From an uncultured Nitrospira sp. (lineage in GTDB: Bacteria; Nitrospirota; Nitrospiria; Nitrospirales; Nitrospiraceae): 64,000 nucleotides of DNA. The stretch lies in contig CABVSR010000009.1 in assembly GCA_902500995.1 (NCBI GenBank), positions 1-64,000 on the forward strand. The letters are read 5' to 3'. The notes under the pieces were generated by a model, which was not told the DNA's origin, did not search any database, and worked only from the letters and a program-made list of their open reading frames with translations. This document shows, piece by piece, positions 34,760 through 45,138 of this stretch (position 1 is its first letter; every line of letters starts with the position of its first letter). Made by a program: the position numbers and the translations under genes.

Positions 34760-34765
34760 AATACC

Positions 34766-35008
34766 ATGGCAACCTTGACCATCAAAAATATTCCCGAGCC
34801 CTTGGTGAAACGCCTCAAACAGCAAGCAGCCGCACATAGACGAAGCTTGAATTTCGAGGTCATTTCATACCTCGAACAGATGACCCAGAGCGTCCCCATT
34901 GACGCGGACACATTACTGGCCAGGGCGCGAGCCGTCCGCCGTATTCCGACGGGTGTTCGACTCAACGATCGTCTGCTCCAGGATTTGAAAACGGCCGGCC
35001 GTCCATGA
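34766..35008 (+). CDS. Arc/FitA-type antitoxin
   Basis: An 80-residue protein: MATLTIKNIPEPLVKRLKQQ, then AAAHRRSLNFEVISYLEQM, the ribbon-helix-helix pattern of FitA-like antitoxins, and a C-terminal tail (RIPTGVRLNDRLLQDLKTAG) that would wrap the toxin. The true start is at 34766, with GAGGAG upstream; the longer frame is a read-through. It overlaps the toxin start by four bases. It should neutralise the PIN toxin and repress the operon through the palindrome upstream. Confidence 0.88.
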   Translation: MATLTIKNIPEPLVKRLKQQAAAHRRSLNFEVISYLEQMTQSVPIDADTLLARARAVRRIPTGVRLNDRLLQDLKTAGRP

Positions 35009-35406
35009 TTGTGGCTGATACGAATCTGTTGATCTATCTCTATGTTCAAGGGCAACGGACCCAGGAGAGCGAAGCTGTGCTCAGGCGGGACGCAGTCTGG
35101 ACGGTGCCGCTACTGTGGCGATCGGAGTTTCGTAATGCCTTGGTCGGATTGATCCGTACCGGCGCGCTTCAGTTGAATGATGCGCTCGCCATGAGCGAGG
35201 AAGCTGAACGGTGGTTGAACGGATATGAATACACAGTGTTATCAGGGCGAGTGCTGGCGTTAGCTAATCAGTCGGGATGTTCGGCCTATGATTGTGAATT
35301 CGTGGCCCTCGCCCAAGACTTGGAAGTGCCCTTGGTTACCAGTGATCGTCAGATCCTGAAGGCCTTTCCAACAATGGCGGTTTCTCCGTCGGCTTTTGCG
35401 ACTTAA
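35005..35406 (+). CDS. vapC: PIN-domain toxin (VapC-like)
   Basis: A 133-residue PIN ribonuclease. The acidic residues that bind the metals are all present: Asp5 in VADTNLLIYLY, Glu in LWRSEFRNAL, Asp in GCSAYDCEFVALAQ, and Asp in VTSDRQILKAFP. VapC toxins cut specific RNAs such as initiator tRNA, but the target cannot be told from sequence. It overlaps the antitoxin by ATGA. The protein is intact, in contrast to the truncated PIN remnant at 52146-52271. Confidence 0.92.
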   Translation: MIVADTNLLIYLYVQGQRTQESEAVLRRDAVWTVPLLWRSEFRNALVGLIRTGALQLNDALAMSEEAERWLNGYEYTVLSGRVLALANQSGCSAYDCEFVALAQDLEVPLVTSDRQILKAFPTMAVSPSAFAT

Positions 35407-36155: not shown

Positions 36156-36497
36156 TCAGGGTTTCGCGCTCTTCTTTCCGAAATAGTCGCGCCGGCTGAC
36201 GGACACATCCGACACGAACATGACCCCTGAGTGGCGGTCAAACAGCGGTCGCAATCCGGCCAACACCGGCTCCACCTTCTCCTCGGGCACCACCGCCATA
36301 ATCATGACCAGGCTCTCCTGCTCGCTGAACATGAAGTGCGCCTCACGCACGCCATGGTGCCCCTTCCCGGAGATGTTGCCGATGATGGTGTACCCGGTCG
36401 CTTCGACCTTGTCCAGCAATTCCGTGACGAAGGGCCGGTGTTCCCCGGACACGATGACCCGGATTTCTTTCATGGGATGCAACGTCAGTGCGGCCAT
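36156..36497 (-). CDS. PII-like regulatory protein of the DAB operon
   Basis: A 113-residue protein with the PII ferredoxin-like fold: KEIRVIVSGEHRPFVTELLD, KVEATGYTIIGNISGKGHHG, LVMIMAVVPEEKVEPVLAGL, VMFVSDVSVSRRDYF. The loop equivalent to the T-loop is short (GKGHHGVREAHFMF), and the uridylylated Tyr of GlnB is absent. PII-like proteins next to bicarbonate transporters (for example SbtB) regulate carbon uptake through nucleotide binding, so control of DabAB is the natural guess. It starts 50 bases after the dabA stop. Confidence 0.75.
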   Translation of the reverse strand: MAALTLHPMKEIRVIVSGEHRPFVTELLDKVEATGYTIIGNISGKGHHGVREAHFMFSEQESLVMIMAVVPEEKVEPVLAGLRPLFDRHSGVMFVSDVSVSRRDYFGKKSAKP

Positions 36498-36547
36498 GTC
36501 TCGACTCCTTTGCTTTGCGAGAGATCGTCGTCTGCGATGAAGCGCGA

Positions 36548-39500
36548 TTACCCAGCCTGCGAGGGTTCACCCGGATGTTGAACCCTGCGCCACACTCCTG
36601 ACGGCATGTAGCGGTACCAGGTGCCGTCCTCAGGATCCAACGCCGCGAGATGAACCCACTCGTTGTGATAAAAATGCTGCAGAATTTCATGCCGCGCGAT
36701 GAGTCGTTCGATGCGCGAGCGCGGGGCTTCGACCAGCGTCATCAGGCGGATCGGTTCATGAAAGGGCAGCTCGCCGTTCATGACGGTTTGCCAGGCCAGT
36801 CCGAGGCGAAGATCGCTATAGGGGCCGGACATGATCCCCAGGCGGCCGACGACGTTGTGATAAATCTTGCTCCCGCTCCCATAGACATCATTATCCACGG
36901 CGGAGAAATAATGCTCCATGTTGATCCACTGCGCCACCACTTGCGGGGCGGTGAGGAGCACTTCGAGCCATCGGTCGGTCGGGTCTTCGCGATGATCATA
37001 GGATTGGAGAAAGATCCGCCCGGACAAATTCAGCCCCTTCGTCAGTTCCCGCCGGCCGATGATGAAGGCGGTGTTGCCGGAGAGGCCCCATTCGGGCCGC
37101 ACCTGACTCCAGTCCGCGCTGCGCTCAGCCACATGGCCTGACGCCTTCTCAAGCGGCAGCACGGCGCCGACATCGGGAAATCTCGTGCAACGCTCCTGGC
37201 TGGTGAGCTGAGCCGCTTCCCGTAAATCCTCATACAGGCGAGCCACATCCTTGCGGTGGGTCGGCGGTGCGTCTTCGAGATCGAACAGCTGCACCTCATC
37301 AGTCGTCGTATCGATCTGCCCGGCCAAAAAGTGCGTATCCGGCGGAATGACGATGCCGCGTTTGGCCAGCCGTTCACGCACCGGAGCGCGGTTGGCCATG
37401 GCCGCCAGGACACGCGCGTTCGGTTTCCCTTCATTGCCGCCGCAGGCGCCGCAGTCCAGCGCCGACTCGAACGGATTGTTTTCCGTGGTACTGCCGTGGG
37501 CGCAGAACAGCACGAGCCGGGCGAAATTTCGCACCAAGCCCATCATGCGCAACGCCGTTTCGAGAGTCATCACCTGCTCCTCGAGCGTGAAGCCGGTGCG
37601 CGTGATGCGTTCCTTCTGGCGCGAGGCTGCGCGGCCGTTGATTCGATAGTGCCGCTGCAGCTCATCGATAAACGTGGAGAGTTGCTCGCTCGAGAGATCG
37701 ATCGCCCGGGCGGCCTCGCTCAAGAACGGCTCCACGGGTGCGTCCTCGTCCAAGGCTCGCCGTCGCAGCGCTTCGACGAATTCGGCCTCGACTCTGGAGC
37801 CATGCAAGCCGAACCGATCGCGCAGGGCCTTCCAGATCAGCGCACGTTGCTCGGAGGCGACCATTTCTTCGGTTTCAGCCGGCGCCAGTTTGTCGACGGT
37901 TAAAATGGTCGCGATCGGCGGCACAAACAAGCGGCGGATCCAGCCGGTCAGTCGCTTGTAGAGAGCCGGCAGAAAGGTCTTGCCCATCATGGGCAGGACA
38001 TAAAACCAGCCCAAGGATTCGACCATCACATACGGCGTGACGACGTTTTCTTTCAAGTCGTGCAACAGCGTATGGCCCGCATGCACCAGTTTGGCCCGGG
38101 ACTGGTGTTTGGACACGTAATGGTCCAGGTAGCTGCGAGGGATTTCCCGCACCTCGTTCTTGGCGCGCATGATGACCGGGAACTGCTCGGTTTCATGTTC
38201 CTTGCCCCACGCGCGATATCGAATCAGGGCGGCAAAAAATCCCGCGAACCCGTAGGTCTCGTTGGCGCCCGTGGATTCCAGATGCCGGCGGAACGGCTCG
38301 GACCGCACATCGATGCAAAAGACCGATTGGGAGTGCGGGCGTACCGGCGGTTGACCGTCGGGGGCGGCAGGCTGCGGTTTGGTCGGCGCGCGCCGCAACA
38401 TCCCGAACAGGTGCTCGTGATACCCGGCCTCCAAGGCCTTCAGCCATACGGGTCCATGGGCCGTTTCGGGAAATTCGTCCATCCAGTCCAGGAGCCGTCG
38501 AAGGGCGGCCGGCGGCGCGTCCATCAACAGGGCCGGCACGATTTCGAGCGCCTGTGCGAGGGTGAGGAGGCGTTGGGCCATGGCCCGTTGCGAAGCCCGT
38601 TCCCGCCGCGGACCGAATTCGATTTGATAGTGGTGCGTGAGCCGCTCCCATTCGTGGGACAGACCGGCCTGGGCCGGTTGGCCGACCGATCGTGCGTGGA
38701 GGCGAGCGACTCGATCGGCAAAGGAAGCGGGCAAACGGCCGGCGACCCATTCCTTGCGCAAAAAGTACGCGGGAGACTGCTGGTCCATCACGCGCATGGC
38801 CGCGCGATAGGTGCCTTCGATGCCCAAGTGTTCCCGGCAGACCTGTTCGACCAGTTCGCGGACATACCAGAGCCGCACGGCGAGAAATTTTACCAGGCCG
38901 ACAGGGTAGGCCTGCTGCCAGGCATAATCGTTTTCCTCCGCCCTCCATTTGATGAAGCCGGCCCAACCGGGCAAGGCGGCAAGCTGCAGCGAGAGGTAGT
39001 CCTGCCGGAACTCTGCCGGGATCGCCAAGGCTTCGAGGCAGTCCAGCACCAGGTCTTCCGGATGTTCCGGCAGCGCGGCAATCTTTCGGCGGCTGTCCGC
39101 GATGCCGCAGGTCGTCCATTCATTGGCGGCCGCCTGCTTCCAGGCCGCATACAATCCCTGGCGCCGTCCCGGCATCGGCCAGGCGGCATGGCCTTCATCC
39201 AGGAAGGCCTCGCACCATTTGATCAGTTCGCCGTTGATCAGCTCGCCGATCCTGGTGCCCAGCGTCCGGTCGCACCAGGTCGAGAGAGTCACCTCGCGGC
39301 CCAGCGCAGCCACATCGTCGCGCACCGTGGCGGCGATCCGTTCCTGCACCGTCGGCGCGGCAAAGCCGACGAGGTGCTCGGCCAGGACCTCTACCTGTTC
39401 CTCGTTCGGCGCTCGTTCCATAAGCCGGTCACAGGTTGCCTCGCCCGGGCGCGACAAACCATGGGTCAGGCAGGCACGCAGCACCTCACGCTGTGAAATG

Positions 39501-39826
39501 CGGCAAGATCCGAGATCGACTTCTTGATCCTGCGCGAGGGGTGCCAAGGCCTCATCGAGATGGCGGACGAGAATGCGCCCGGTTTTGACGTAGCGACGGT
39601 AGAGATCCCCGGAAAGATATCCATCGCCGCCGAGGAATTGCCGGCCGCGCCGGACCGTTTCGGTAAACGGCAAATATTCGAGGCTGTGAAGAGGATTATG
39701 GTGCACAAAGGTGCGCATGGGCCAATACTGCGCGATGACTTCGCTGGCGAGCCGGATCATACCCCGCAATTCCATGCGGCGGGTTTCCTGATCCATCGGA
39801 TCTGCGGTGCGAATCATCTGGTCCAT
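36548..39826 (-). CDS. dabA: DabA, inorganic carbon uptake protein (DUF2309)
   Basis: A 1092-residue DUF2309 protein, a distant relative of beta-type carbonic anhydrase and the cytoplasmic subunit of the DAB bicarbonate/CO2 accumulation complex. The zinc ligands known for DabA are all present: Cys504 and Asp506 in FCIDVRSEP, His777 and Cys792 in HGSTTENN...SALDC, with the expected 15-residue spacing. Such complexes use the proton gradient to hydrate CO2 in one direction and supply carbon fixation. The start overlaps the preceding gene by 13 bases. A PII-like gene follows. Confidence 0.93.
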   Translation of the reverse strand: MDQMIRTADPMDQETRRMELRGMIRLASEVIAQYWPMRTFVHHNPLHSLEYLPFTETVRRGRQFLGGDGYLSGDLYRRYVKTGRILVRHLDEALAPLAQDQEVDLGSCRISQREVLRACLTHGLSRPGEATCDRLMERAPNEEQVEVLAEHLVGFAAPTVQERIAATVRDDVAALGREVTLSTWCDRTLGTRIGELINGELIKWCEAFLDEGHAAWPMPGRRQGLYAAWKQAAANEWTTCGIADSRRKIAALPEHPEDLVLDCLEALAIPAEFRQDYLSLQLAALPGWAGFIKWRAEENDYAWQQAYPVGLVKFLAVRLWYVRELVEQVCREHLGIEGTYRAAMRVMDQQSPAYFLRKEWVAGRLPASFADRVARLHARSVGQPAQAGLSHEWERLTHHYQIEFGPRRERASQRAMAQRLLTLAQALEIVPALLMDAPPAALRRLLDWMDEFPETAHGPVWLKALEAGYHEHLFGMLRRAPTKPQPAAPDGQPPVRPHSQSVFCIDVRSEPFRRHLESTGANETYGFAGFFAALIRYRAWGKEHETEQFPVIMRAKNEVREIPRSYLDHYVSKHQSRAKLVHAGHTLLHDLKENVVTPYVMVESLGWFYVLPMMGKTFLPALYKRLTGWIRRLFVPPIATILTVDKLAPAETEEMVASEQRALIWKALRDRFGLHGSRVEAEFVEALRRRALDEDAPVEPFLSEAARAIDLSSEQLSTFIDELQRHYRINGRAASRQKERITRTGFTLEEQVMTLETALRMMGLVRNFARLVLFCAHGSTTENNPFESALDCGACGGNEGKPNARVLAAMANRAPVRERLAKRGIVIPPDTHFLAGQIDTTTDEVQLFDLEDAPPTHRKDVARLYEDLREAAQLTSQERCTRFPDVGAVLPLEKASGHVAERSADWSQVRPEWGLSGNTAFIIGRRELTKGLNLSGRIFLQSYDHREDPTDRWLEVLLTAPQVVAQWINMEHYFSAVDNDVYGSGSKIYHNVVGRLGIMSGPYSDLRLGLAWQTVMNGELPFHEPIRLMTLVEAPRSRIERLIARHEILQHFYHNEWVHLAALDPEDGTWYRYMPSGVWRRVQHPGEPSQAG

Positions 39827-41118
39827 GGTTCACTCGTCATGGCGATTGCGGCGGGAGTGCCCGCCGGCGGCTCAAACATCCGGGACGGAGCCGTCCCCAG
39901 CAGGAGCAGCAACAGCAAGATGAGAAGCAGCGAAACGAATTCCGTCTGCCGCAAATCTTCGTGCCGGATGTCCAGACGCGACCGGCCGAACACGATCTGT
40001 TGAATGAGGTCGGTGTAGTACCAGGAGGCGGTGAGCCAGACGAGCATGATGATGGCGAACGGTCCCGACGGGGAAAAGGCGGGTGTCAGCAACATGCCCA
40101 GGAAGCCGGAAAAGACGCCGAACGGCGGCATGCCCAGCGCGGCGAGCGCCAGCAGCGCGAGCAGGGTGCTAAAACGGGGCATGGGATAGGCGAGACCGCC
40201 GAGCGCCCGGAAATCGATATCCCCATATCGCGCCCGGATGGCGTACCAAGCCAGGAGGAGACCGCTGATCGTCAGCCCCACCGCGCTGAGATACACCAAG
40301 GCCTGGGCCGGCGCGGTTCCCGTGTCGGCAATGAACCACCAGAGCAGGCAGAAAAAGGCCAGCGCCGCATAGCCGAGCCGCGGCAGCGGATGCGACTGAA
40401 TCAAGGCCCGCAGAGAACCATAGACTGCGCCGGCCAGCGCCAGGATCGCCACCGTGCGGAGCGCGGCACCGGGCAGGCTCGGGAGCAGCAGAGAGAGTGT
40501 GTGGAATCCCACCGTGGGCAGAACGAAGGCCAGAAAGGCGGGAAGATTGCCCGGCAATCCATTGAGCGCCGCCACGAAGCCGCTCTGCAAGGGCAAGAGG
40601 GGCAGCAGTGTGGCGCAGGTGATCAGCGAGGCGATGGTCGAAGCCGGTGCCGGAAGCGCCAAGGCCATCAGCGTGCACAGGATGCCCAGGCCGAATGACG
40701 ATATCCCTTGCCAGGTTTCTGCCGTGGAGCTCGGCGGATGCGCATACAACAATCCGGAGACGACGGCCAGGAGCAGCACCAGCAAGAACCCCTGCGCAGC
40801 CGCGTGGCTCGTGAGAATGCCCAGCGCCAGGCCGAGCAGGATCAGGGTCATGGTCCAGGCTGAATGGTGAGCCCGGTGCAACGGCTGCCCGAGGAGCGTG
40901 AGAAACGCCGTGACCGGAAGCAGGGACAGAAACGCCATGCCGGCCGGCGATTCCGGGTGTGCCAGAGATGTCCCGATGACGGCCAGCAGACTGGCTGCGG
41001 TCGTCACCAGCGCCACAGTTTTCATGCGCTGCAGGGACGCGTTCACCAAGAGGCAAAGACTGGCCCCTAACAAAGGAATGGCCAGGAGGAGCCAGGGTAC
41101 CATCCAGGCCTCGATCAC
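39814..41118 (-). CDS. Additional NuoL/M-like membrane subunit in the DAB operon
   Basis: A roughly 434-residue integral membrane protein with about 12 hydrophobic helices (for example FLLVLLLAVVSGLLYAH and FVSLLLILLLLLLLG). The second half, with PRFSTLLALLALAALGMPPF and GVFSGFLGMLLTP, resembles the C-terminal part of NuoM/MrpD proton-channel proteins, but the conserved channel Lys and Glu motifs are weak. It lies between dabB and dabA and overlaps dabA. The GTG at 41118, with GAGG upstream, is my start; an ATG at 41103 is an alternative. Confidence 0.75.
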   Translation of the reverse strand: MIEAWMVPWLLLAIPLLGASLCLLVNASLQRMKTVALVTTAASLLAVIGTSLAHPESPAGMAFLSLLPVTAFLTLLGQPLHRAHHSAWTMTLILLGLALGILTSHAAAQGFLLVLLLAVVSGLLYAHPPSSTAETWQGISSFGLGILCTLMALALPAPASTIASLITCATLLPLLPLQSGFVAALNGLPGNLPAFLAFVLPTVGFHTLSLLLPSLPGAALRTVAILALAGAVYGSLRALIQSHPLPRLGYAALAFFCLLWWFIADTGTAPAQALVYLSAVGLTISGLLLAWYAIRARYGDIDFRALGGLAYPMPRFSTLLALLALAALGMPPFGVFSGFLGMLLTPAFSPSGPFAIIMLVWLTASWYYTDLIQQIVFGRSRLDIRHEDLRQTEFVSLLLILLLLLLLGTAPSRMFEPPAGTPAAIAMTSEPWTR

Positions 41119-41176
41119 GACCGGCCCTCGATGGCGGCTGCAGACGCGCCGCCATGGTTGCACTGCCTGAATGCCA

Positions 41177-42871
41177 TCACGACAGCGGTTTCTCCAGGCG
41201 ATGGGCGACCTGCGCCACGACGCGGCCGATGGTGAGATAGAGCTGATCCAGATACAGCCGGTTCATGAAGAGGACGTAGAGGCGGACGAGAAAGGCCTCG
41301 ATCCATCCGGGAATCGTGATGGTGCGCCCGTGGGCATGGGCATACAGATAGACCCAACTCAAAATCGTCAACACCGTGGTGCCGAGGACGAGACTGTCGA
41401 ACAGCCGTCCGGGCAGCGCCGCGGCCTTGAAATAGCCGGCCACTTCATCGGCGTTCGGGTACAGAAAATGGGTGAAGCTCTCCACCGCAAACAGATAGGT
41501 GAACACGACGATCATCAGGGTCGCCAGCATGGCCGCCGACACCTTCCAGGAAGCGACCGCGCGGATGCGCGTCAAGGAGAGGATCGCCTGCGAAGACGTG
41601 ACCCAGATGAAGAAGAGGAGGATCACCGTCCCCTGCGATTCGAGCAGCGGAATGCGCAGCACGCCGTGCGTCACCAGCAGGATGATCAACGGCAGCAACA
41701 GGGTGGTCAAAAATCCTGTGGACCAGGTCAGGTTGGAAAATTCTTGTTCCTCCGTCTCGCGATCGACCGGCGGAAAGGAGGGTTCTTGGCGCGCCTTATG
41801 AATGACGTTGCCGCAGTTCAGGAAGACCGTCCCTTTGAACAGGCCGTGCGCGATGAGATGGAAGACGGCGAGGGAAAAGGCGCCGAGGCCGCATTCCATG
41901 ATCATGTAGCCCATTTGGCCGATCGTGGAGAATCCGAGGGTCTTCTTGATGTCGTTCTGGGTCAACATCATGGTGGCGCCGAGGATCGCCGTGAGCATGC
42001 CGATCACGAACACCACATGCAGCGTTGTCGGGCTCATGCCGTAGAGCGGGGCCAGTCGGTTCAGCAGGAACCCTCCGGCATTGATGATGCCGGCGTGCAG
42101 CAGCGCGTGGATCGGGGTCGGGGCGTAGAGCGATCGCGGCAGCCAGGTGTGAATCGGAAATTGCGCCGACTTGCCCATGGCGCCGCCGAAAATGAGCAGG
42201 GTCACCGCGGTGACGCCGTTCATTTCCCATCCCAGCGCGGGCCAGATCGAAAGGGTCACCGGCGACGCTGCGGCGCGTGTGAACAATGTCTCAAATTCCG
42301 ACGTGCCGTACAGCGAATAGCCCAGGACGATACCTGCGAGAAAAGCGGCATCGCTGAGCCGCAAGGTCGTAAAGGTGTTGGATGCGCCGGACAGGGTGGC
42401 CGCATGCCCGTGGTTGTGCGCCAGGAGAAAGAGCAGCCAGGAGAGAATTTGCCAGAAGATGAAAAGCATCACCAGATTGGCGCTGGCGACCATGCAGAGC
42501 AGCACCGAGGTCGTGAGGCCCAGCATGCCCAGATACCGTCGGTACCCGCGATCCTGATACAGGTAGCCCATCGAATAGCGGTAGATGAGGGTGTTGACAC
42601 CTGTGATCAAGACCATCATGGCCGCACTGAGCCGGTCGATGTAGACGCCGATCGGAAAGGCGAGATTGGCGACGGCGGCCGGATCGTACAATCGGAACAT
42701 GATCGGGCCTTCCACGGTCACCATGATCAATATGATGACGGAACCGAGGAAGGATGCCGCGATCGGGAACAGGCCTGATCGGGCGTTCTGCTCCTGGTCG
42801 GCTCGATCGCCGGTCATCACAATGAAGGCCGTGAGTAACGGCAACAGCGGGACAAGCGCCGACAAGGACAT
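41177..42871 (-). CDS. dabB: DabB, proton-conducting NuoL-like membrane subunit
   Basis: A 564-residue polytopic protein of the complex I/Mrp antiporter family: ANLVMLFIFWQILSWLLFLL, FGGAMGKSAQFPIHTWLPRS, YAPTPIHALLHAGIINAGGF and DIKKTLGFSTIGQMGYM are the classical TM7-TM10 signatures with the Lys and His of the proton path. In the DAB system DabB carries protons that drive DabA. It is first in the operon, with a strong hairpin in the leader about 30 bases before the ATG. The length and lack of other complex I genes nearby argue against NADH dehydrogenase. Confidence 0.9.
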   Translation of the reverse strand: MSLSALVPLLPLLTAFIVMTGDRADQEQNARSGLFPIAASFLGSVIILIMVTVEGPIMFRLYDPAAVANLAFPIGVYIDRLSAAMMVLITGVNTLIYRYSMGYLYQDRGYRRYLGMLGLTTSVLLCMVASANLVMLFIFWQILSWLLFLLAHNHGHAATLSGASNTFTTLRLSDAAFLAGIVLGYSLYGTSEFETLFTRAAASPVTLSIWPALGWEMNGVTAVTLLIFGGAMGKSAQFPIHTWLPRSLYAPTPIHALLHAGIINAGGFLLNRLAPLYGMSPTTLHVVFVIGMLTAILGATMMLTQNDIKKTLGFSTIGQMGYMIMECGLGAFSLAVFHLIAHGLFKGTVFLNCGNVIHKARQEPSFPPVDRETEEQEFSNLTWSTGFLTTLLLPLIILLVTHGVLRIPLLESQGTVILLFFIWVTSSQAILSLTRIRAVASWKVSAAMLATLMIVVFTYLFAVESFTHFLYPNADEVAGYFKAAALPGRLFDSLVLGTTVLTILSWVYLYAHAHGRTITIPGWIEAFLVRLYVLFMNRLYLDQLYLTIGRVVAQVAHRLEKPLS

Positions 42872-42946: not shown

Positions 42947-43261
42947 CACTGTCCCCGGCCTTTCCCTGAATGGAAACACCGGCAAGACCCTACTGCCTGT
43001 CTCAGTACATCGATGGAGTGGGTCCGGGCCGCGCAACAATCACGGCCTCTCGTCGGCACCACCGGAAAACTGGGTTAGATGTATCCGTGGAACCGGCGCA
43101 ATTGCAAGCGAAAACTCCGCCGGTTGACTCTGATGCGTCCGTACCCACGCTCGGTTGCAAGGCGGAGACGGCAGTTCCGGTACCGGCTCTCATAGGACTA
43201 GAGTCCTGGAGCGCCCGTGACTATAATCCGGTCGTCCGTGTCTATCTCACCAGGGAGCAAG
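42947..43261. other. Divergent region between DAB operon and DUF2294 gene
   Basis: 315 bases, no gene with ribosome site on either strand. Several short frames are present, all without family similarity. It presumably carries the promoters of both directions and the leader of dabB; no promoter box was identified with confidence. Confidence 0.5.
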
Positions 43262-43636
43262 ATGACCGTGCCTGCTGCCAGCAAGGGAGAAAAGGAAGCC
43301 GCCGTTCGCACGGCGATCATCAAATTCGAACAGGAATTTCTCGGTCGCGGCCCCGACGAAGTCCGCGTGTTCATTGTCCGCGATATGCTGGTGGCGCGGC
43401 TAAAGGGGGTGCTCACCCCCGCGGAGCGACAACTGGCCAAGACGGCCGAGGGCATCGACATGGTCAAGCGGCTGCGGCAAAACCTCATCGCCCAAGGGCG
43501 GGATCGACTCTGCGAACAGGTGGCGGATCTGATCGGCGCCAAGATTACCGCCCTCTTCACCGACATCGATACGGTGGTCGGCGAGCGTATTTTCGTCTTC
43601 ACCCTGGAATCCGATCTGGAAGCGAATTTTCGGTAA
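43262..43636 (+). CDS. DUF2294-family protein
   Basis: A 124-residue protein with IIKFEQEFLGRGPDEVRVFI, VRDMLVARLKGVLTPAERQL, then GRDRLCEQVADLIGAKI and DTVVGERIFVFTLESD, the pattern of DUF2294 (Na-translocating or bicarbonate-transport-associated by genome context in several bacteria). AGGGAGC before the ATG at 43262 selects this start over the longer frame. It is divergent from the DAB operon and shares its upstream region. It may be a regulatory protein of carbon uptake, an inference from position. Confidence 0.75.
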   Translation: MTVPAASKGEKEAAVRTAIIKFEQEFLGRGPDEVRVFIVRDMLVARLKGVLTPAERQLAKTAEGIDMVKRLRQNLIAQGRDRLCEQVADLIGAKITALFTDIDTVVGERIFVFTLESDLEANFR

Positions 43637-43662
43637 GATGAGTGAAGTGGGGCACTAGGGCC

Positions 43663-45138
43663 ATGACGAAACACAAGCTGGAAACCCTCACCTTCGACAA
43701 CAGCTACGCGCGCCTGCCGGAGGTGTTCTACGCCAAGGTGAATCCGACGCCGTTCGGCGCCGCCCCCTACCTGATCAGCGCGAATCGCGCAGCAATGGAT
43801 CTGCTCGACCTCGACCATGCTGAAGCAGCGCGACCCGAATTCGCCGGAGTCTTCGGCGGCAGCCTGCTGGTGCCGGGCATGGAACCGCTCGCGATGTTGT
43901 ATTCCGGCCACCAGTTCGGCGTGTATGTGCCTCAGTTGGGCGATGGCCGGGCTATTCTTCTGGGAGAAATCGTCAACGGGCGTGGCGAGCGGTGGGATCT
44001 GCATTTGAAAGGCGCAGGCATGACGCCCTTTTCCCGCGACGGCGACGGTCGCTCCGTGCTGCGCTCGGCCATTCGCGAATATCTCTGTTGCGAAGCCATG
44101 CATGGCCTCGGGATCCCGACGACCCGCGCGCTCTGTTTGGTCGGGAGCGACGACAAGGTCTATCGCGAGCAGGTGGAAACCGGCGCAACCATCGTCCGCA
44201 TGGCGCCCTCGCACGTGCGGTTCGGCACCTTCGAGATTTTTTACTACCGGAAGCAGCATGAGCATCTCCAGCGCTTGGCCGATTACGTAATCGAGATGCA
44301 TTTTCCCCAGCTGACCCAGGCTGCCGATAAGTATCTCCGCTTCTTTGCGGAAGTTGTCGAGCGCACGGCGAAGCTGATCGCGCAGTGGCAGGCAGTGGGC
44401 TGGTCCCACGGCGTGCTGAACACCGACAACATGTCGATCTTGGGAGCGACGCTGGATTACGGCCCCTATGGCTTCATGGATGATTACGACCGGGGCTTTA
44501 TATGCAACCATTCCGACTACAATGGACGGTATGCCTTCAACCAGCAGCCCTACATCGGCCTGTGGAATCTGAGTTGTCTCGCGCAAACCCTCTTGCCGCT
44601 CGCGCCGAAGGACGTCTTAAAAGAGGTGTTGGATGGCTACCAGGTCCTGGTCGATCGATCGTATCGAGAGCAGATGCAAAAGAAGCTCGGCCTCACGGAA
44701 GATCGCGGCGAGGACGAAACGTTGCTCCAGGAGCTGAAATCGCTCATGGCCGGCAGTCGCGTGGATTACACGATATTCTGGCGTGAACTCGGCACCTTCT
44801 CATCCGAGCCTGCGGCGAGGAACGAACGGTTGCGGGAGCATTTTTTGGATCCGGGACGGTTCGATCTCTGGGCTGCGCAGTACCGCGACCGGCTGCGTGG
44901 AGAGCAGAGCCGGGACGACGAACGGCGCGTTCGCATGGATCGCGTCAATCCCAGGTACGTCCTCCGGAACTATCTCGCGCAAGGGGCCATCGAGAAAGCT
45001 CAACAGAAAGATTACACGGAAATCGACTGCCTCCTGAATCTGCTGCAACATCCCTATGTGGACCAGCCCGGCATGAATTCTTACGCGGTCGCCCCGCCGA
45101 ACTGGGGCAAACATCTCAGCGTGAGCTGCTCCTCGTAA
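43663..45138 (+). CDS. selO: SelO (YdiU/UPF0061) protein adenylyltransferase
   Basis: A 491-residue pseudokinase of the SelO family, which transfers AMP to proteins under oxidative stress. Family blocks include SGHQFGVYVPQLGDGRAILL, LHLKGAGMTPFSRDGDGRSV, VGWSHGVLNTDNMSILG (the catalytic-like segment) and YGPYGFMDDYD. The C-terminal SVSCSS keeps the conserved Cys that replaces selenocysteine of eukaryotes. The start at 43663 is supported by similarity from the first residues. The gene follows DUF2294 by 26 bases and may be co-transcribed. Confidence 0.93.
   Translation: MTKHKLETLTFDNSYARLPEVFYAKVNPTPFGAAPYLISANRAAMDLLDLDHAEAARPEFAGVFGGSLLVPGMEPLAMLYSGHQFGVYVPQLGDGRAILLGEIVNGRGERWDLHLKGAGMTPFSRDGDGRSVLRSAIREYLCCEAMHGLGIPTTRALCLVGSDDKVYREQVETGATIVRMAPSHVRFGTFEIFYYRKQHEHLQRLADYVIEMHFPQLTQAADKYLRFFAEVVERTAKLIAQWQAVGWSHGVLNTDNMSILGATLDYGPYGFMDDYDRGFICNHSDYNGRYAFNQQPYIGLWNLSCLAQTLLPLAPKDVLKEVLDGYQVLVDRSYREQMQKKLGLTEDRGEDETLLQELKSLMAGSRVDYTIFWRELGTFSSEPAARNERLREHFLDPGRFDLWAAQYRDRLRGEQSRDDERRVRMDRVNPRYVLRNYLAQGAIEKAQQKDYTEIDCLLNLLQHPYVDQPGMNSYAVAPPNWGKHLSVSCSS

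Follow-up and report, generated by a model that had tools for sequence, protein, structure and literature searches.

The DAB2 complex consists of two subunits, DabA2 and DabB2 (structure 9rd0), and the model drawn from it (PMC13144422) is the one behind the mechanism that we propose below. A first-pass annotation of the DNA considered here had taken the known DAB systems to be made of DabB and DabA only, which is wrong: DAB1 of Halothiobacillus neapolitanus (hneap_0909 / 0908 / 0907) is described as having three subunits (PMC13144422), and its gene order was printed in 2015 as NuoL, a putative membrane protein, a DUF2309 protein of 1046 aa and PII (PMC4633670). The interstitial gene has been assigned to PF00361, and DAB1 with this gene complements E. 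coli that is free of carbonic anhydrase (PMC7714395). In 2017, a link was drawn between extra membrane subunits and how many ions are moved, in an account that also describes one clade of these operons with PII at the 3' end and another with NuoM genes (PMC5700660). Our search of the literature turned up no published structure or function of the third DAB1 subunit and nothing on DAB in Nitrospira.

The membrane subunits of cyanobacterial NDH-1MS (NdhF3/NdhD3/CupA) have a CO2-hydrating partner, and they include, as the Nitrospira locus does, one NuoL-like and one NuoM-like protein. NDH-1MS draws its energy from ferredoxin oxidation (PMC13144422), whereas the Nitrospira locus holds no redox module. 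In MpsABC of Staphylococcus aureus, MpsA is NuoL-like, MpsB is DabA-like and an MpsC family gene lies nearby, all as in Nitrospira; the Nitrospira locus differs in that its mpsC is divergent and upstream and in that a NuoM-like subunit has been added. The Staphylococcus mpsC, downstream and co-oriented, has been called dispensable, and the same 2019 paper describes mpsC as collocated in staphylococci only (PMC6689103).

The Nitrospira locus and its host genome

How does the Nitrospira locus compare? In the window, by which we mean the whole stretch of 64,000 nucleotides that was analysed, four genes are transcribed from the minus strand in the order dabB, Mid (as we call the middle gene), dabA and PII, and a fifth, mpsC, lies upstream of dabB and is transcribed divergently from it:

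dabB, 41177-42871, minus strand: 564 aa; predicted NuoL-like proton-conducting subunit; Proton_antipo_M (PF00361, E 2.9e-46) and Proton_antipo_N (PF00662)
Mid, 39814-41118, minus strand: 434 aa; membrane subunit of predicted NuoM fold; NCBIfam NDH_I_M, E 6.4e-17
dabA, 36548-39826, minus strand: 1092 aa; predicted beta-carbonic-anhydrase-like catalytic subunit; PF10070, E 3e-262
PII-like regulator, 36156-36497, minus strand: PF00543, E 6.3e-23
mpsC, 43217-43636, plus strand: PF10057, E 3.4e-35; exact start uncertain

The end of Mid runs 13 bases into dabA. The layout is that of DAB1, with a membrane-protein gene between dabB and dabA and PII after dabA, and the three-subunit arrangement in itself was already known from Halothiobacillus. 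What is new is a NuoM form that is of full length and looks inactivated, together with the fusions of DabB to Mid and the tight link to mpsC. The third protein of DAB1 has been called small, whereas Mid of Nitrospira has 434 aa and, as modelled, a full NuoM fold (hneap_0908 is compared here by its description); and DAB1 sits in a carboxysome locus, whereas the Nitrospira genome gave no match to the BMC shell family (PF00936). The first-pass annotation had placed DabB, the middle gene, DabA and PII correctly, as coordinates, Pfam and NCBIfam agree, but it missed mpsC as well as a Mid-less DAB operon elsewhere in the genome.

The host genome (3.97 Mb, 97.6% complete), for which Mid points to Nitrospira as the closest named relatives, carries that second operon on contig C2 in the order dabB-dabA-PII (L033 4438-9847). 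Since this operon has no Mid, Mid would not be needed for DAB chemistry, which by analogy the two-subunit form should carry out without it. The C2 operon adjoins a sensor kinase and a sigma-54-type regulator frame. A search for the carbonic anhydrase families beta-CA (PF00484) and alpha-CA (PF00194) gave no match in the genome, and one RuBisCO-type match scored 79.6 bits.

The subunits and the proton path

To judge from conservation, DabB looks like the NuoL-like subunit of DAB / DAC complexes with its proton path in place: K234, H259, K309, S315, H338, H342 and K346 are invariant in 20/20 sequences, and the path is also kept in 12/12 of the fusions described below. The matching residues of DAB2, which we paired through the numbering of PMC13144422 and through complex I alignments, have been mutated and found important (PMC13144422). 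Gln141 (19/20) stands where NuoL has its glutamate, and the absence of this glutamate from DAB has been described before (PMC13144422); no solved relative matched the C-terminal part of DabB. DabA, for its part, combines the PF10070 domain, the two Cys, the Asp and the His, and the finger Glu by which DAB / DAC complexes are recognized. The four metal ligands listed in the first-pass annotation (Cys504, Asp506, His777 and Cys792) hold up, in that DabA2 in 9rd0 has the same motifs at the aligned positions and that they, together with E603, are invariant in 21/21 aligned DabA. Glu603 aligns with the finger residue Glu444 of DabA2 (9rd0_A), which has been reported as essential (PMC13144422). Zinc ligands, finger glutamate and DabB proton-path pattern are, in other words, common to DAB2 and the Nitrospira proteins; DAB2 differs in having two subunits and in the length of DabA2, with 870 residues in the 9rd0 entry vs 1092 for DabA of Nitrospira.

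The PII-like protein expected behind dabA is there as well, and among solved structures its sequence is closest to 5d4n/5drk, which we take to be CPII of Thiomonas (phmmer E 8.8e-35 to 5d4n, residues 1-103); at E<=0.01 its solved-structure matches were 5d4n-type and 5d4l entries only. PII is not special to the three-subunit form, because it also stands behind two-gene DAB operons on Nocardia and Mycolicibacterium plasmids.

What kind of protein lies between them? The Mid reading frame ends at 39814, and its longest start, GTG at 41163, would give 449 aa; we have taken ATG at 41118 (434 aa) as the start because relatives of Mid begin there. No Pfam family matches Mid at E<=1; PF00361 is matched by 17 of 24 Mid relatives, and the NDH_I_M match of Mid is limited to residues 184-431. 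The protein had been called NuoM/MrpD-like in its C-terminal part, which is right for the sequence but not for the fold, where the likeness spans the whole length. A single-chain AlphaFold2 model made with an alignment of 24 relatives (pLDDT 84.6, pTM 0.87) superposes on E. coli NuoM (3rko_C) along residues 6-418, with a VIA Z of 40.5 at 2.4 Å over 412 aligned residues and a Foldseek TM of 0.82; 3rko_C is equalled by MrpD and by further NuoM and NdhD chains, and chain D of 6tjv, which bears on the likeness to NDH-1MS, gives Z 39.7. That is, the predicted fold is the NuoM fold of a conducting NuoM / MrpD subunit. We considered that Mid might be a stray NuoM of complex I and rejected the idea, as the genome has its own NuoM, NuoN and NuoL genes on contigs C1 and C4, and these score far higher with the NuoM model.

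The residues tell another story from the fold. The positions of E. coli NuoM that we take to be its proton-carrying residues, K234, K265 and E407, are held in the sequence alignment of 24 Mid with NuoM by Leu171 (L in 23, A in one), Pro201 (P in 24/24) and Phe339 (F in 20, L in three, M in one), and the DabB-Mid fusions carry similar residues at the same three positions (L/V in 11/11, P in 12/12, F/Y/L in 12/12). Mid has no His at the NuoM 322 and 348 positions of that alignment. In a profile alignment to the host genome's own NuoM, no acid of Mid falls at the TM5 glutamate (NuoM Glu144 region), and the helix aligned with this region has no conserved acid among the 24 Mid. By these alignments Mid lacks the proton-path residues of a conducting subunit, and the second proton path through the middle protein that the first-pass annotation had suggested is not borne out; a structural part is a more likely description of Mid than a second proton channel. 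Two polar positions within predicted helices are nevertheless kept, His206 in 22/24 and Lys/Arg237 in 24/24, and Gln241 is also conserved, so that an unusual proton or ion route by way of His206 and Lys/Arg237 may exist.

Distribution of Mid, its fused and short forms, and mpsC

The survey of Mid covered Nitrospirota and plasmid records. In the 175 genomes of the host's family we counted matches at E<=1.4e-44 as strong, leaving out one fragment at 2.9e-20 and the weaker rows, which we took as complex I subunits. The co-occurrence with dabAB in other genomes that the first-pass annotation led one to expect was found, in that no strong listed Mid stands away from dabA: dabA is directly downstream in 139 of the 140 strong matches listed, and the other (G018) is cut by the end of its contig. 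For 94 of these Mid the neighbour was checked by coordinates against the listed DabA and for the other 46 from locus sequences, 45 of which have dabA behind Mid, with G018 as the remaining one. DabA itself is present in 158 of the 175 genomes, with at least 150 DabA in the family, and Mid marks one kind of DAB, since 56 of the 150 listed DabA are without it. Two genomes of the family have a third DAB type, with dabA upstream of dabB and no match to Mid or PII (L087 and L088).

A Mid search of genome contigs gave 108 matches, and the best 80 of them are our named loci, which bear titles of Nitrospirota type only (one is titled Nitrosospira) and include Candidatus Nitrospira defluvii (FP929003.1, L112). 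Among these best 80 of 108, DabB is missing only in L121 and DabA only in L119, both cut by contig ends; the order thus seen in 79/80 named loci for each neighbour led us to reject the view that the middle gene arose by chance or mis-assembly. PII follows dabA in 65/65 of these loci with room for it, and two dabB stand in tandem before Mid in 28 of the 64 with enough upstream sequence (L040, L042, L043, L048 and L065 are among them); in the four pairs that we aligned, neither copy has lost the proton-path residues. The plasmid records gave no Mid match at E 1e-5.

Mid-like matches outside the host's family often lie in frames of about 880-930 residues, as we saw in a wider sample of 395 Nitrospirota genomes from which 29 further loci were examined. 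In 13 of the 29 (L196, L197, L199, L200, L202, L203 and L205-L211, of which L197 is cut at a contig end), one frame encodes DabB and then the part of Mid that starts at about residue 130-200; chance or mis-assembly was rejected as their source, as they are seen in 13 loci from several families. Other examined loci have Mid as a separate gene, either full or shortened, the short frames having 362-391 aa (L213, L215, L218, L219 and L222); L217, where DabA gave no match, seems to be a different complex. Since the fusions retain only the second half of Mid, this half would be its essential part. In a tree of DabA, the nine fusion rows that could be used fall together (SH-aLRT 100), the rows with full and with fused Mid form one group of 41 (SH-aLRT 98), and the short-Mid rows group with the Mid-less C2-type rows at 92, so that loss and separate gain of Mid are both possible. 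An AF2 model of a fusion was weak (pLDDT 68.1, pTM 0.74) and was dropped as a guide to how Mid packs on DabB; its last part still resembles NuoM in the second half of that fold (7qsd_M 192-453), with Z 27.8 at 2.2 Å over 256 residues.

Taken with the linkage to dabA, the fusions support, indirectly and from sequence, the view that Mid is a genuine and conserved third subunit of a putative DAB complex. The three-component complex of the first-pass annotation survives to this extent, with the middle protein as an indirectly supported member, but not with a second proton path.

A possible counterpart lies outside Nitrospirota. Plasmid 1 of Nitrobacter hamburgensis X14 (NC_007959.1, L223) carries dabB, a gene for a 253-aa protein, dabA and PII, twice in tandem beside RuBisCO, the two operons being near-identical. 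The 253-aa protein is half the size of Mid and can be aligned over its full length with the second half of Mid. The alignment scores 21 bits, or 36 bits when the fusion profile is used, where the best of 500 shuffles reached -2.3 and -3.1 and unrelated membrane frames stayed below 3.5 bits; true NuoM/NuoN score as high against Mid. Like Mid, the 253-aa protein carries L, P and F at the three lost positions. These alignments show that the Nitrobacter protein and Mid share a superfamily; orthology rests on gene position.

The company of mpsC was surveyed in the same 175 genomes. Of 139 strong listed MpsC genes in the family, 108 are within 8 kb of a strong Mid, and all of these are upstream and divergent; MpsC occurs without a strong Mid in 17 of the 175 genomes and Mid without a listed MpsC in 20. 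In 6 of the 13 fusion loci (L196, L200, L202, L203, L205 and L211) mpsC stands shortly upstream in the same orientation. Mid-less operons are mostly without mpsC, and weak matches (51-53 bits) stand beside two of them (L076 and L081). This synteny in the Nitrospira family speaks against the published view of mpsC as collocated in staphylococci only; function is a separate matter. A gene that had been set aside for lack of synteny, mpsC, is in this way reopened by its linkage to Mid. Directly behind mpsC in the window is a gene for the protein adenylyltransferase SelO (43642-45138, plus strand).

Probable mechanism and other readings

What might such a complex do? We think it probable that the Nitrospira locus encodes a DAB1-type, membrane-potential-driven CO2-hydration complex, in which Mid is an integral subunit of NuoM fold that has lost its proton path and serves as a structural or coupling partner. 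By analogy with DAB2, DabA would hydrate CO2 at its zinc site, which would be switched to hydration by protons flowing through DabB and by the finger glutamate of DabA, and bicarbonate would be released into the cytoplasm and build up in the cell. Mid would most likely pack on DabB, by way of its second half, and might hold DabB or shape the finger cavity, and the PII-like protein would probably adjust the complex to the level of bicarbonate or nucleotides. Sequence and modelling establish the genes, their conserved order, the fusions, which residues are kept or lost, and how Mid folds; from these we infer that a physical complex forms, which way transport runs and what Mid and PII do. Nitrospira is described as fixing carbon by the rTCA cycle (PMC8115632), so the bicarbonate would presumably feed carboxylases, not carboxysomes. 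If the complex works as DAB2 does, it would bear on how widespread nitrifiers supply carbon fixation without carboxysomes.

Could Mid instead be a second active channel, for protons or sodium, so that two ions pass per CO2? The whole NuoM fold and the conserved His206, Lys/Arg237 and Gln241 favour this, the tandem dabB copies may mean extra ion paths in other forms, and the idea is close to the published suggestion about the number of membrane subunits (PMC5700660); we nonetheless hold it unlikely, given Leu, Pro and Phe in place of K234, K265 and E407, no His at the positions of His322 and His348 and no conserved acid in the Glu144 region. An inactivated-looking Mid argues, moreover, against counting membrane genes in order to count translocated ions. 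That Mid keeps no catalytic residues would suit a protein that acts in assembly or stability only and stays outside the finished complex, as would its lack from the second DAB operon, yet the natural joining of its second half to DabB in one covalent chain is more readily explained by a permanent subunit and its linkage to dabA is near-perfect, and we give this reading only a slim chance. A sodium/bicarbonate symporter, such as MpsAB of Staphylococcus is proposed to be (PMC13144422), would stand in place of a proton-driven CO2 hydratase, and the adjoining mpsC is in its favour; it seems to us quite improbable, as DabA keeps the zinc ligands and the finger Glu of DAB2, for which sodium was reported not to be needed (PMC13144422).

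A bolder version of the reading that we prefer is that a whole NuoM was recruited and its proton path switched off, making it a lateral coupling or locking subunit of a CO2 hydratase that was then trimmed stepwise (full, shortened, second half fused to DabB), with MpsC, dismissed as unrelated to the transporter, as a functional partner. We offer this tentatively, as an idea that could be right and that we would sooner doubt than assert. For the preferred reading, too, the series found in Nitrospirota (full, short, fused half, none) points to which half of the third subunit matters, and the DabB-Mid fusions are single chains usable for structural work.

Beyond the 3' end of the DAB operon, the window also holds a gene pair for a FitA-like RHH antitoxin and a PIN-domain protein (34763-35403, plus strand).
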